DNA of 47,422 nucleotides from an uncultured Bacteroidota bacterium (GTDB taxonomy: Bacteria > Bacteroidota > Bacteroidia > UKL13-3), in NCBI GenBank assembly GCA_903927505.1, contig CAIYNF010000017.1, positions 1 through 47,422 of the forward strand. Direction: 5' to 3'. A program made the translations under genes and the position numbers. Positions 10,684 through 14,942 of this stretch are shown here, piece by piece (position 1 is the stretch's first letter; the number at the start of each line of letters is the position of its first letter). The notes under the pieces are model-generated. The model saw nothing but the letters and a program-made list of their open reading frames with translations, made no database searches and was not told the origin of the DNA.

Positions 10684-12108
10684 ATGAAGTTAAAGTTTTT
10701 AGGTGCAGCCAAACAGGTAACAGGGAGCATGTATATGCTTAGGCTCGACAATGGCTATACCATATTGGTGGATTGTGGAATGGATTATGAGGTAAAAAAG
10801 AATCCTATTGAGCGAGCAAATTTATTCCCTTTTGAGGCAGTAGATATTGATTTGGTTTTACTGACCCATGCGCACATAGATCACTCTGGAAATTTGCCTG
10901 CATTGGTGAATCACGGTTTTAGCGGCCATATTATGTGTACGCCTGCAACTGCAGAATTAACGGGTTATTTGTTATATGATTCTGCGAATATTCAGTTTCA
11001 TGATTACAGAAAAAATTTGGGTCGATCCAAAAAATCTAGGCGCGACCTTATTCCAAAACCATTATTTAGCGAGAAAAATGTGAAACAGACCGTTGAACAA
11101 TTTCTAACAGTTAATTACAACCAAGACTTTCAAATAAATGAAAATATCAGTGTTAAGTTCCTGGAAGCTGGCCATTTGTTGGGAGCAGCAAGCATTTTAA
11201 TCACGGTAACAGAAAACAACAAAACAACTACCATCGGATTTTCAGGAGATTTGGGCCGATCCAACAGCAAACTAGTTAAGGACGGAGAAATATTTGAACA
11301 AGCAGATTATTTAATTACAGAATCTACCTATGGCGGAAGAAAGCATATTGCTGTTGGCTCTGCTGAGGAAGAATTGTTACAGCATATTCAAAAAACTTGC
11401 ATTGAATTTAGAGGTAGACTAATTGTTCCTGCCTTTAGCGTAGGAAGAACTCAAGCCATTGTTTTTACGATTAATCAATTAAAGAAAAAAGGCTTGATTC
11501 CAAATTGGCTTAAAGTTTTTGTAGATAGTCCTCTTGCCATAAAAAGTACTCCTGTTTATGAAAGACATTCCTATTTATTAAATGAAGAAGCCTTGGCATT
11601 TCAAAAAGAACATGGTAGTTTATTTCATTTTGATGGCATTACCTATTTGGAAGGTATGGATGAGCACGATGAATTATTGAATTATTTTGATGCCTGCATT
11701 ATTATTTCTGCTGCTGGAATGGTTGAAGGCGGCCGTATTCAAGAGCATGTAATGAATAATATTGACAACCCCTACTCTACTATTTTAATTGCTGGATTTT
11801 GTGCAGAAGGAACATTAGGGCATCGGTTGTTGCAAGGTCAATCTACAATTAGAATTAAGAACACCGATAAAAACGTTTATGCGCAAATTGCAAAAACGGA
11901 TGTGTACAGCTCTCACCCAGACCACGATGAGGTTTTATCATATATCAAACGCAGCGCAGAAAATTCGAAAAAAGCGGGAAGGCCTATTCAGAAAGTATTT
12001 TTAATTCATGGTGAAGAACCACAATTGCTTGCAATGAAAAATGCCGTTGAAGCAGAAGGAATTGCTGGTGTTGAAATCCCTGAAATGGAACAAGAATTTA
12101 TTTTATAA
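10684..12108 (+). CDS. Beta-CASP metallo-beta-lactamase-fold hydrolase (RNA-processing type)
   Basis: Motif 2 THAHIDHSGNLP (about residues 60-71), motif 3 in AGHLLGAAS, motif 4 FSGDLGRS, and the beta-CASP features ITESTYGGR, PAFSVGRTQA, SAAGMVEGGR and the late His of FLIHGEEPQLLAM place it with CPSF73/archaeal-CPSF-like MBL nucleases. Such proteins cleave or degrade RNA using two zinc ions. The 474-residue length matches the bacterial single-chain form without a KH domain. It is followed 1 bp later by the EamA transporter gene, and the two are likely co-transcribed. Confidence 0.92.
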   Translation: MKLKFLGAAKQVTGSMYMLRLDNGYTILVDCGMDYEVKKNPIERANLFPFEAVDIDLVLLTHAHIDHSGNLPALVNHGFSGHIMCTPATAELTGYLLYDSANIQFHDYRKNLGRSKKSRRDLIPKPLFSEKNVKQTVEQFLTVNYNQDFQINENISVKFLEAGHLLGAASILITVTENNKTTTIGFSGDLGRSNSKLVKDGEIFEQADYLITESTYGGRKHIAVGSAEEELLQHIQKTCIEFRGRLIVPAFSVGRTQAIVFTINQLKKKGLIPNWLKVFVDSPLAIKSTPVYERHSYLLNEEALAFQKEHGSLFHFDGITYLEGMDEHDELLNYFDACIIISAAGMVEGGRIQEHVMNNIDNPYSTILIAGFCAEGTLGHRLLQGQSTIRIKNTDKNVYAQIAKTDVYSSHPDHDEVLSYIKRSAENSKKAGRPIQKVFLIHGEEPQLLAMKNAVEAEGIAGVEIPEMEQEFIL

Positions 12109-12109
12109 A

Positions 12110-13039
12110 ATGAATATTGGTTATTTAGCTGCTGGCATTACTCTTGTAAGTTGGACAGTTGGCACCTTTGCGTTCACGCGTGCATCGCAATTAGCAAATC
12201 CCTCAAGTGTAAATAGAGTTAGGTTATTATTTGCATTCATTATTCTAAGTATTTTAACTTGTTTTTATTTAAGAATTAATCCCATTGAATTATTTACCAC
12301 ACCAAATTTTGAACAATATTTATGGTTTGGAATATCCGGTTTTATTGGATTAACCTTAGGTGATTATTTCGCCTTTACAGCTTACAGCATATTAGGAGGT
12401 AGAAGAACGAGTTTATTTGCTTGCTTTGCGCCTGGTGCAGCATTATTTGCAGCCTATTTTTTAGTAGGAGAACGCATTAATATTGCTGGAATTATAGGCA
12501 TGTCAATTTCAATTAGTGGTATATTGCTGTTAGTATTATCTAGAAAGGAGCACAATGCTGTTGAAAGTGAGCACAAAGGCAGCTTCAATAAAGGTATCTT
12601 ATTTGCTGCTTTAGGAGCTATTTGCCAAGGACTTGGTTTGGTATTAGCTAAAAAGGGATTTAGTTTTTCTGAAAATAATTTTAGCCCTATGTATGCCACA
12701 TGGGTTAGAATGTTTAGTGCAAGTTTTTTTGTTTATATAATGGGATCATTTAATGTGCCATTTTGGAAGGAGTTGAAGGACATAATTGGTAATAAAAAAG
12801 TAATTCATGCCTTGTTATTAGGAACTGTATTTGGTCCAGTAATTGGAGTAAGTTTTTCGCTTTTAGCGGCAAATCATTTAGACGCTTCTGTAGCACAAAC
12901 AATTTTCACACTGCTTCCTGCGAGTGTACTTTTTACTTCTGTAATATTTTTCAAAGAACGCGTACCCTTTTTATCTTATTTGGCTGTTATCATTTCCATT
13001 TTAGGAGTGATTGTATTGGTGTGGAGGAATAATTTTTAG
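12110..13039 (+). CDS. EamA/DMT-family transporter
   Basis: About ten hydrophobic segments arranged as two similar halves, typical of the drug/metabolite transporter superfamily: IGYLAAGITLVSWTVGTFAF at the start, PGAALFAAYFLVGERI closing the first half, and LLPASVLFTSVIFFKERV closing the second, each with the conserved GE/KER helix end. The substrate is unknown. The ATG at 12110 directly follows the upstream stop (TAAAATG); the longer frame from 12041 would overlap the beta-CASP gene and lacks a reason. A 244-bp non-coding gap follows. Confidence 0.92.
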   Translation: MNIGYLAAGITLVSWTVGTFAFTRASQLANPSSVNRVRLLFAFIILSILTCFYLRINPIELFTTPNFEQYLWFGISGFIGLTLGDYFAFTAYSILGGRRTSLFACFAPGAALFAAYFLVGERINIAGIIGMSISISGILLLVLSRKEHNAVESEHKGSFNKGILFAALGAICQGLGLVLAKKGFSFSENNFSPMYATWVRMFSASFFVYIMGSFNVPFWKELKDIIGNKKVIHALLLGTVFGPVIGVSFSLLAANHLDASVAQTIFTLLPASVLFTSVIFFKERVPFLSYLAVIISILGVIVLVWRNNF

Positions 13040-13068
13040 ATTTATCCTACTTTCCTGAAAAAAGCAAA

Positions 13069-13097
13069 AGGTCACGAGGGTGGGACCCTCGTGACCT
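13069..13097. repeat. Perfect inverted repeat, 13-bp arms with GGG loop (REP-like)
   Basis: Left arm AGGTCACGAGGGT (13069-13081), loop GGG, right arm ACCCTCGTGACCT (13085-13097), with no mismatch. It is much more G+C-rich than its surroundings and lies 29 bp after the EamA stop. No T-run follows on the plus strand, so it is not a classical terminator. It shares the CGAGGGT/ACCCTCG core with the palindrome at 13190-13229. Confidence 0.85.
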
Positions 13098-13101
13098 AAA
13101 C

Positions 13102-13160
13102 TGTGGAAAACAGATAATTGACTAACTAATAGACACTTTACCTACTAAAATTGTGGATAA
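13102..13160 (-). other. Two DnaA-box-like 9-mers spaced 50 bp
   Basis: TGTGGAAAA (13102-13110) and TGTGGATAA (13152-13160) read on the minus strand as TTTTCCACA and TTATCCACA. The second is an exact match to the canonical DnaA box. They have the same orientation, lie exactly 50 bp apart, and sit between the two palindromes. The second is also flanked by CTACT...AGTAG. Two boxes are too few for a confident origin. Confidence 0.35.
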
Positions 13161-13189
13161 AGTAGCTGATTTGAGAATATTATAGAGTG

Positions 13190-13229
13190 AACTAACCCTT
13201 CGAGGGTTTAAACCCTCGAAGGGTTAGTT
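13190..13229. repeat. Perfect 40-bp palindrome without loop (REP-like)
   Basis: Both arms are 20 bp and the centre is GGGTTTAAACCC. The left arm reads AACTAACCCTTCGAGGGTTT and the right arm is its exact reverse complement. It lies 54 bp upstream of the polX start codon. As RNA or single-stranded DNA it would form an almost loop-less hairpin. It shares the CGAGGGT core with the repeat at 13069-13097, so both probably belong to one mobile palindromic family. Confidence 0.88.
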
Positions 13230-13283
13230 GGTAAATTGTAGTTTTAGACATGTTTGGAATTTTGTAGTTTCACCAAAATTATT

Positions 13284-14942
13284 ATGACAAACTCAGACAT
13301 AGCAGATATCTTGAAATTATACGCAGATTTAAGCGAACTCCATAACGGCAATCCATTCAAAATTAAATCGTTTGCAGCTGCCTCTTTTCGCATAGATAAA
13401 ATGCCAGAACCACTCTTTGGGAAATCATTGCAGGAATTGGAAGCCATGGAAGGTGTTGGCAAAAGTATCGCTCAAAAAATTCATGAAATATGCAGTGCCA
13501 ATTCATTTAATGAATTAACTGAATTAATGGAAGCAACACCTGAAGGCGTAAGAGACATTATGCGCATTAAGGGAATTGGACCAAAAAAAGTTGCCATTAT
13601 TTGGAAAGAAATTGGGGTTGAATCCATAGGTGAATTGCTTTATGCCTGTAAGGAAAATAGACTCGCGCAATTCAAAGGATTTGGGCTTAAAACCCAGGAG
13701 GCTATTATCAAACAAATAGAGTTTATTTTTGTAAGTGCAAATAAATTTCATTACGCAAAAGCCTACCCTGTTGCATTAAAACTACTCAGTATTTTAGAAG
13801 AGTTTGAAACCATTGAAAAAGTTGAACTCAGCGGGGAAATAAAGAGAAATTTTGAAATTTTAACGGAAATTGAACTAATTGTTGCAAGCGACGATGAAGC
13901 TTCATTTAGAGAAGAATGGCTTCAGTTTTTTGGTGAGGAAGAAAGTGAAGAACAAATTAAATTTGAAGGTTATCCTATACAATTAACAATAGTTCACCCT
14001 GATGAATTTATTCTGAAGCAATTTGAAAAAAGTTCAAATGCAGAACATTTTAAAGCAATCATGGCTAGGTTCGAACCGAAACAAAATAGTTTAAAAAACG
14101 AAACGGAAATATACCAAGCAGCAGGATTGCCATTTATTGTTTCTGAATACAGAGAAAATAGAGGGGAAATTGAAAAAGCAATTGATAATAAACTTCCTAT
14201 ACTTATTGAATTCACCGACTTAAAGGGCCCACTTCACAACCATTCCACCTGGAGTGATGGCCTACACACCATTGAAACCATGGCTAATTATTGTATTGAA
14301 AAAGGCTATGAATATTTAGGTATGGCCGACCATTCCAAAAGTGCTTTTTATGCCAATGGTTTATCTGAAGAAAAAGTTATTTTACAGCAAGCCGAAATTC
14401 AAAAAATCAACCAAAAATATGCAGGCAAATTTAAGATTTTTGCAGGCATAGAATGTGATATATTATATGATGGTCAAATGGATTATTCAAATGAAATTTT
14501 AAAAACATTTGATTACGTTGTTGCTTCTGTTCATAGCATTCTTAAAATGACAGAAGAAAAGGCAATGAGTAGATTGATTCGCGCAATTGAAAATCCTTAT
14601 ACTACTATTTTAGGCCACCCCACTGGACGATTGTTGCTAATGAGAGAAGGTTATCCAATTGACCATAAAAAAATTATTGATGCTTGTGCCGCAAACCATG
14701 TTATTATGGAATTAAATGCCAATCCTTATCGTTTAGATATGGATTGGAGGCATATTGATTATGCCTTAAACAAAGGTGTGATGATAAGCATAAATCCGGA
14801 TGCACACGAAGTGGAAGGTTTTAACGACATGTTCTTTGGTGTTGCCGTAGCCAGAAAAGGTGGCCTATACAAAGAAATGTGTTTCAATGCGCAAGACATG
14901 AATTACCTATCCGATTATTTTAAAAAGAAAAGAGGGGTTTAG
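13284..14942 (+). CDS. PolX-like protein: HhH/Pol-beta region plus PHP phosphoesterase domain
   Basis: Domains in order: an 8-kDa/HhH region with LEAMEGVGKSIAQKI and MRIKGIGPKKVAIIWKE (about 50-115), a Pol-beta nucleotidyltransferase region (about 150-260) and a PHP domain from residue ~315. The PHP metal site looks complete: LHNHSTWSDG, MADHSKS, GIECDIL, ASVHS, GHPTGR, NPDAHE. In the polymerase region the usual GS-RR...DxD reads SGEIKRNFEILTEIELIVA, so DxD is replaced by ExE, and the third Asp position reads IQLTIV. Polymerase activity is therefore doubtful, whereas the PHP 3'-5' exonuclease/phosphoesterase may work. ATG 13284 is chosen over an upstream TTG. It ends 6 bp from the convergent C25 gene. 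Confidence 0.88.
   Translation: MTNSDIADILKLYADLSELHNGNPFKIKSFAAASFRIDKMPEPLFGKSLQELEAMEGVGKSIAQKIHEICSANSFNELTELMEATPEGVRDIMRIKGIGPKKVAIIWKEIGVESIGELLYACKENRLAQFKGFGLKTQEAIIKQIEFIFVSANKFHYAKAYPVALKLLSILEEFETIEKVELSGEIKRNFEILTEIELIVASDDEASFREEWLQFFGEEESEEQIKFEGYPIQLTIVHPDEFILKQFEKSSNAEHFKAIMARFEPKQNSLKNETEIYQAAGLPFIVSEYRENRGEIEKAIDNKLPILIEFTDLKGPLHNHSTWSDGLHTIETMANYCIEKGYEYLGMADHSKSAFYANGLSEEKVILQQAEIQKINQKYAGKFKIFAGIECDILYDGQMDYSNEILKTFDYVVASVHSILKMTEEKAMSRLIRAIENPYTTILGHPTGRLLLMREGYPIDHKKIIDACAANHVIMELNANPYRLDMDWRHIDYALNKGVMISINPDAHEVEGFNDMFFGVAVARKGGLYKEMCFNAQDMNYLSDYFKKKRGV

Follow-up and report, generated by a model that had tools for sequence, protein, structure and literature searches.

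BIME-1 of E. coli is a pair of REPs with an IHF site between them (PMC2817692), and a REPIN is a REP doublet that forms a hairpin (PMC3116915). The element that we describe here lies in an intergenic gap of the window, by which we mean the whole stretch of 47,422 nt that was analysed (contig CAIYNF010000017.1 of an uncultured Bacteroidota bacterium), and it shares features with both. As in BIME-1, two palindromic units share one intergenic unit, and the spacer between them holds a site of host-protein type; however, the two palindromes here are different from each other, have symmetric arms and lack a GT[AG]G foot, they occupy three loci, not hundreds, and two DnaA-box-like words stand where BIME-1 has its IHF site. 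Its doublet arrangement, common complementary core, link to a RAYT gene and compensatory stem changes recall the REPINs, whereas each end folds alone, the element is not multi-copy and its spacer carries conserved words.

Two TnpA-REP subclasses found in Bacteroidetes, as characterised in PMC6006769, also resemble this system when motifs are compared by eye. With subclass 2.4 (RAYT group 4 REPtrons) it shares the NHFH motif, the host phylum and long symmetric-ended palindromes, and relatives (L150, L087) carry the palindrome inside the RAYT gene; it differs in the absence of a GT[AG]G foot, in YIHSNA/YIHSNP rather than YIxNNP, and in F for W in the WQ motif. With subclass 2.6 (RAYT group 5) it shares the host phylum and GT[AG]G-free flanking structures with copies elsewhere in the genome, but those structures are described as weaker, whereas strong perfect palindromes are found here, and the F of NHFH falls outside NH[LIV]H.

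The composite element and its copies

An earlier note on this DNA had reported two perfect palindromes in one intergenic gap, and both are exact: palindrome 1 has arms of 13 nt (13069–13081 and 13085–13097, 100% paired, 3-nt gap) and palindrome 2 has arms of 20 nt (13190–13209 and 13210–13229, 100% paired, no gap). The pattern CGAGGGT-N0..20-ACCCTCG occurs at 2 places in the window vs. 0/100 dinucleotide shuffles, and single-strand folding of 13065–13233 gave z = −10.9, with 0/200 shuffles equally stable. On the plus strand the gap reads hairpin 1, ~5 nt, TGTGGAAAA, 41 nt, TGTGGATAA, ~30 nt and hairpin 2, within the following features:

12041–13039, plus strand: left neighbour gene, EamA-type transporter (Pfam PF00892, E 2e-29)
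13058–13068, minus strand: T-rich tail after hairpin 1, possible intrinsic terminator (terminator-like score)
13069–13097, no strand assigned: hairpin 1, AGGTCACGAGGGT-GGG-ACCCTCGTGACCT, perfect arms
13070–13225, plus strand: locus A copy of the complete element, 156 nt (GGTCAC to GGGTT), of equal order and length in G000, G015 and G016
13102–13110, minus strand: box 1, TTTTCCACA (plus strand TGTGGAAAA), DnaA-box-like by sequence match
13152–13160, minus strand: box 2, TTATCCACA (plus strand TGTGGATAA), DnaA-box consensus, identical in 6/6 A/B copies
13190–13229, no strand assigned: hairpin 2, AACTAACCCTTCGAGGGTTT/AAACCCTCGAAGGGTTAGTT, perfect arms; related palindromes lie beside RAYT genes in other Bacteroidota
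13284–14942, plus strand: right neighbour gene, polX-like protein with HHH and PHP domains (Pfam HHH_8, HHH_5, PHP)

A search of the organism's own genome (G000; 2.82 Mb, 209 contigs) for CGAGGGT-N0..12-ACCCTCG returned 5 cores vs. 0 for the reversed control, and these fall at three loci, namely A (in the window), B and R; copies therefore exist beyond the single gap, though they are few. Hairpin 2 of locus R, in which C-G replaces T-A next to the centre, lies outside the core pattern and was found by reading and with a pattern of its own. Locus B has an S1/P1-nuclease-like gene (E 4e-5, under Pfam’s cut-off) on one side and a thioredoxin-like gene on the other, followed by dnaN at ~1.3 kb from the locus. 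Locus R is on another contig, C102, where the pair lies directly 5' of a RAYT gene, with a family-92 glycosidase gene on the other side; a RAYT gene beside the same repeat, for which the earlier note had advised a search, is therefore present. Locus A lies between genes read the same way, and loci B and R between divergent genes.

The element measures 156 nt at locus A in all three carrier genomes, 166–167 nt at locus B and 207–209 nt at locus R. The copies at R have no boxes and their hairpin 1 is asymmetric, so those at A and B are not simple copies of R. Hairpin 1 followed by hairpin 2 at similar spacing was found in 9/9 copies (three loci in three genomes), always together; the two palindromes had been taken for two members of one family, and while they do belong to the same family, they form the two unlike ends of a single composite element and are not independent members. 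Between locus-A copies, 23–26/27 letters of hairpin 1 are identical, with one mismatched pair within it in 2/3 copies, and the hairpin 2 core is identical between copies at 31–32/32 letters.

A REP is an extragenic G+C-rich palindrome of 20–40 bp that flanks a RAYT gene, and in this respect the unit is like one, the pair being 5' of RAYT in 3/3 genomes. The proposed REP/RAYT reading therefore holds, but with a very low copy number (5 cores in 2.82 Mb, and 4 each in G015 and G016), with a conserved interior and without a GT[AG]G foot: on the plus strand GT[AG]G is absent from the 5' foot of hairpins 1 and 2 in 9/9 copies. Within 15 nt outside all four feet of the 9 copies we found one GTGG only, on the minus strand near hairpin 2 of the G015 B copy, and both remaining B copies lack it; the GTGG within box 1 is 3' of hairpin 1, which is the wrong side for a REP foot. 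Because the foot is absent and the copy number is low, we treat the element as a variant of the RAYT/REP kind and do not file it as a canonical REP. Apart from the RAYT-linked copy there are only two, no recent copy was found, and movement was not seen. Plasmids gave no match to the element; viral contigs gave 0 stretches with hairpin 1 and 2 with a hairpin-2-type palindrome.

The linked RAYT gene and relatives with and without the element

The RAYT protein (212 residues) matches NCBIfam REP_Tyr_transpos at E 2e-13 (50.5 bits, under the curated cut-off of 80) and gave no match to Pfam Y1_Tnp. Among PDB sequences its sole match is 4er8, TnpArep (E 1.8e-9), which is also the best fold match (TnpA-REP, E 3.9e-8) of its AlphaFold model (pLDDT 92), and the HUH residues H58 and H60 and the catalytic Y137 are invariant in 17/17 aligned proteins. 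The linked gene thus has the HUH motif, the single catalytic tyrosine and the TnpA-REP fold by which REP-associated tyrosine transposases are defined. Among the three species its dN/dS is 0.05–0.09 at dS 0.88–1.48 (polX-like rows with G016 were left out of dN/dS, the frame being lost at an indel), and it is under strong purifying selection. Its other neighbour at locus R is a cytidylate kinase gene, whose end the RAYT stop overlaps (L003 824–827), so that a palindrome would not fit 3' of RAYT.

Among 64 family genomes the exact core occurs in 4, with pairs in G000, G015 and G016 and a single unrelated match, by eye in coding DNA, in G033. G015 and G016 carry the pair at the same three loci A, B and R, and these are the 2/18 other genus genomes with all three; the RAYT was found in exactly the same 3/19 genus genomes, whereas the other 16 gave no match. 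The neighbour genes of locus A are adjacent without the element in 7 of these 16 (21–131 nt between them vs. 247 here), and those of locus B are together without palindromes or boxes in 2; in the remainder the neighbour differs, is unmatched or lies beyond the stretch compared. Insertion edges are not resolvable, since the nearest relatives are ~25% diverged in protein. Note that the carriers are fragmented assemblies and that G015 and G016 are metagenome-assembled. Across the class, hairpin 1 was found in 1/395 genomes, which is the organism’s own (the sample did not include G015 and G016). The simplest history is that RAYT and both elements were gained in one ancestor.

More distant RAYT matches occur in 15 further family genomes, some of them flanked by other palindromes; L073 (1390–2122), L088 and L089 hold family RAYTs flanked by different perfect palindromes of the accgatgccatcgctt and agacctgacaggtttt types. 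The organism’s own contig C89 (L009 971–1660) presents a contrast, an ordinary REPtron in the same genome: behind another RAYT-like gene stand three canonical palindromes with a GTAG foot and the core GACAGGTCGCGACCTGTC, spaced 49 nt apart. In relative G010 (L053), the intergenic region 5' of the polX-like gene holds a short tandem array with units like AAAAGGGGCGCTAGCCCTGACATCTCAGTAGCCAAACATAC.

Interior boxes, proposed origin and rival readings

In 6/6 A/B copies, two TGTGGAWAA words (minus-strand TTATCCACA-like) stand exactly 50 nt apart, with one changed letter in one copy. On the plus strand, box 1 reads TGTGGAAAA in 2/3 A copies, GGTGGAAAA in the third and TGTGGATAA in 3/3 B copies. Across the six copies 16/18 box columns are invariant vs. 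11/41 spacer columns (Fisher p 1e-5), and the spacer at one locus drifts by up to 17/41 letters between species. A box pair at a gap of 26–56 nt was found nowhere else in the 19 genus genomes, and boxes near hairpin-2 places in AT-rich loci were found in 4/29, these four being the A and B loci in G015 and G016 (25 without). TTATCCACA fits the DnaA-box consensus TT[AT]TNCACA, as quoted in PMC6006769. Of its 10 exact occurrences in the genome, 3 fall inside the two elements (A, B); the word is only mildly rare, with 15–34 expected from Markov models built on 110 kb of own DNA; an initial description of it as strongly avoided (10 vs. 46 for the reversed word) was dropped, as the Markov range indicates that the reversed-word control was inflated. 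Constraint acts on the interior box pair, and its most likely partner is a DNA-binding protein of the host, with DnaA as the first candidate; DnaA is a candidate only, because the word is only mildly rare and marks no origin found. In the literature that we searched, we came across no description of DnaA boxes within a REP doublet.

We consider it probable that the whole element is a BIME/REPIN-like doublet of the REP/RAYT kind that was deposited by a RAYT in an ancestor and has been constrained since. It would be a two-hairpin, non-autonomous unit, like BIME-1 or a REPIN doublet. The linked RAYT, a Y1 HUH nuclease, would mobilise it by recognising its hairpins as they fold in single-stranded DNA. 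Element and RAYT would have entered the ancestor of the three species together, and the element would have been placed at loci A and B and inherited in place, its box pair binding a host protein much as the spacer of E. coli BIME-1 is bound by IHF between the two REPs. The present case bears on why bacteria keep RAYTs: a RAYT under strong purifying selection goes with only two repeat loci, whose positions are shared by three species with synonymous divergence close to saturation, and whose interior is constrained; with only two constrained repeat loci, a host function of the repeats becomes directly testable at two sites rather than at hundreds.

Several other readings bear on the same evidence. 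It is possible, though we doubt it, that the box pair truly binds DnaA for replication control and the palindromes only brought the site in; datA and DARS are names of such titration or reactivation loci, and the fixed 50-nt spacing, the concentration of 3/10 exact genomic TTATCCACA in the two elements and the distance of ~1.3 kb from locus B to dnaN all speak for this reading. Against this, 16/19 genus genomes do without the element, we found no TTATCCACA cluster in the 14 kb read near dnaA and no tight origin-marking cluster among the genus-search matches listed, and the word, a putative DnaA box of this organism, is only mildly rare. The swings in GC skew around loci A and B are all of gene scale and do not help to decide. 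A combined version, in which a REP doublet deposited by a RAYT came to serve as a DnaA-binding locus of the chromosome at two fixed sites, of which one is near dnaN, strikes us as rather improbable; it would place two boxes 50 nt apart between palindromes able to form cruciforms, and, if true, would mean replication control built from the repeats of a domesticated transposase.

The minus strand invites a different view, namely a small RNA gene with hairpin 2 at its 5' end, a linker with two UUAUCCACA and hairpin 1 with a U-run as terminator, which would be compatible with a RAYT origin and which we judge unlikely. The absence of a terminator T-run had been reported for both palindromes, and this stands for the plus strand but not for the minus strand, where TTTGCTTTTT directly follows hairpin 1 and the hairpin scored as terminator-like; the corresponding AAAA directly 5' of GGTCAC is present in 6/6 A/B copies vs. 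0/3 R copies, and the linker has conserved 9-mers without conserved internal pairing. However, Rfam gave 15 weak matches with 0 over the gathering score, a conserved promoter was not shown, hairpin 1 is mismatched in 2/3 A copies, and hairpin 2 occurs elsewhere as a RAYT-linked palindrome without the linker. The one-strand T-run and the position of locus A between two genes read the same way would also suit plain transcription terminators or mRNA-stability hairpins, but at loci B and R, between divergent genes, no gene 3' end runs in, and neither the conserved interior boxes nor the RAYT association would be expected, which makes this reading very unlikely. Chance palindromes, with virtually no probability left to them, are ruled out by the shuffles and by the recurrence of the pair at three loci in each of the three species.

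Hairpin 2 and its outer arms across Bacteroidota

A scan of the named genome collection for the hairpin-2 core gave 45 stretches, among which matches in G+C-rich genomes resemble chance. A RAYT match at E < 1e-5 was found in 10/45 hairpin-2 loci (two of the ten being G015 and G016), and hairpin 2 is thus the REP that belongs to a group of RAYTs found across Bacteroidota. In L171 the palindrome lies on both sides of the RAYT gene.

The earlier note had remarked on different outer arms around one core, and across these loci the outer arms are indeed locus-specific yet perfectly paired. Pairing at >=4 positions beyond the core, i.e. at least four, was found at 10/25 places vs. 0.14 expected, in eight distinct sequences (the 25 are the places with the full AACCC core, from 48 loci, and several are the same locus in sister genomes). 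Compensated pairs occur in 3/6 groups of matching loci, with three different Watson-Crick pairs in three species at positions 5 and 6 of locus R and one compensated position each in two Flavobacterium groups; locus A, locus B and one further group have none. The left arm of L142 mirrors its right flank, and L135 largely shares the flank without the mirror. Rebuilding of one arm on the other should give arms that are locus-specific and perfectly paired: copying of one arm onto the other during replication (template switching) would keep the arms paired and extend them into flanking DNA, although selection for pairing could explain them too. Such arms would offer a clean case for template switching as a maker of perfect palindromes.

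Hairpin-2-type palindromes stand at matching loci of different Flavobacterium-related genomes (L134/L143/L148, L135/L142 and L144/L155/L159), and one of these groups adjoins a RAYT gene. Finally, palindromes lie inside RAYT reading frames at L087 1711–1751 and L150 4497–4523.
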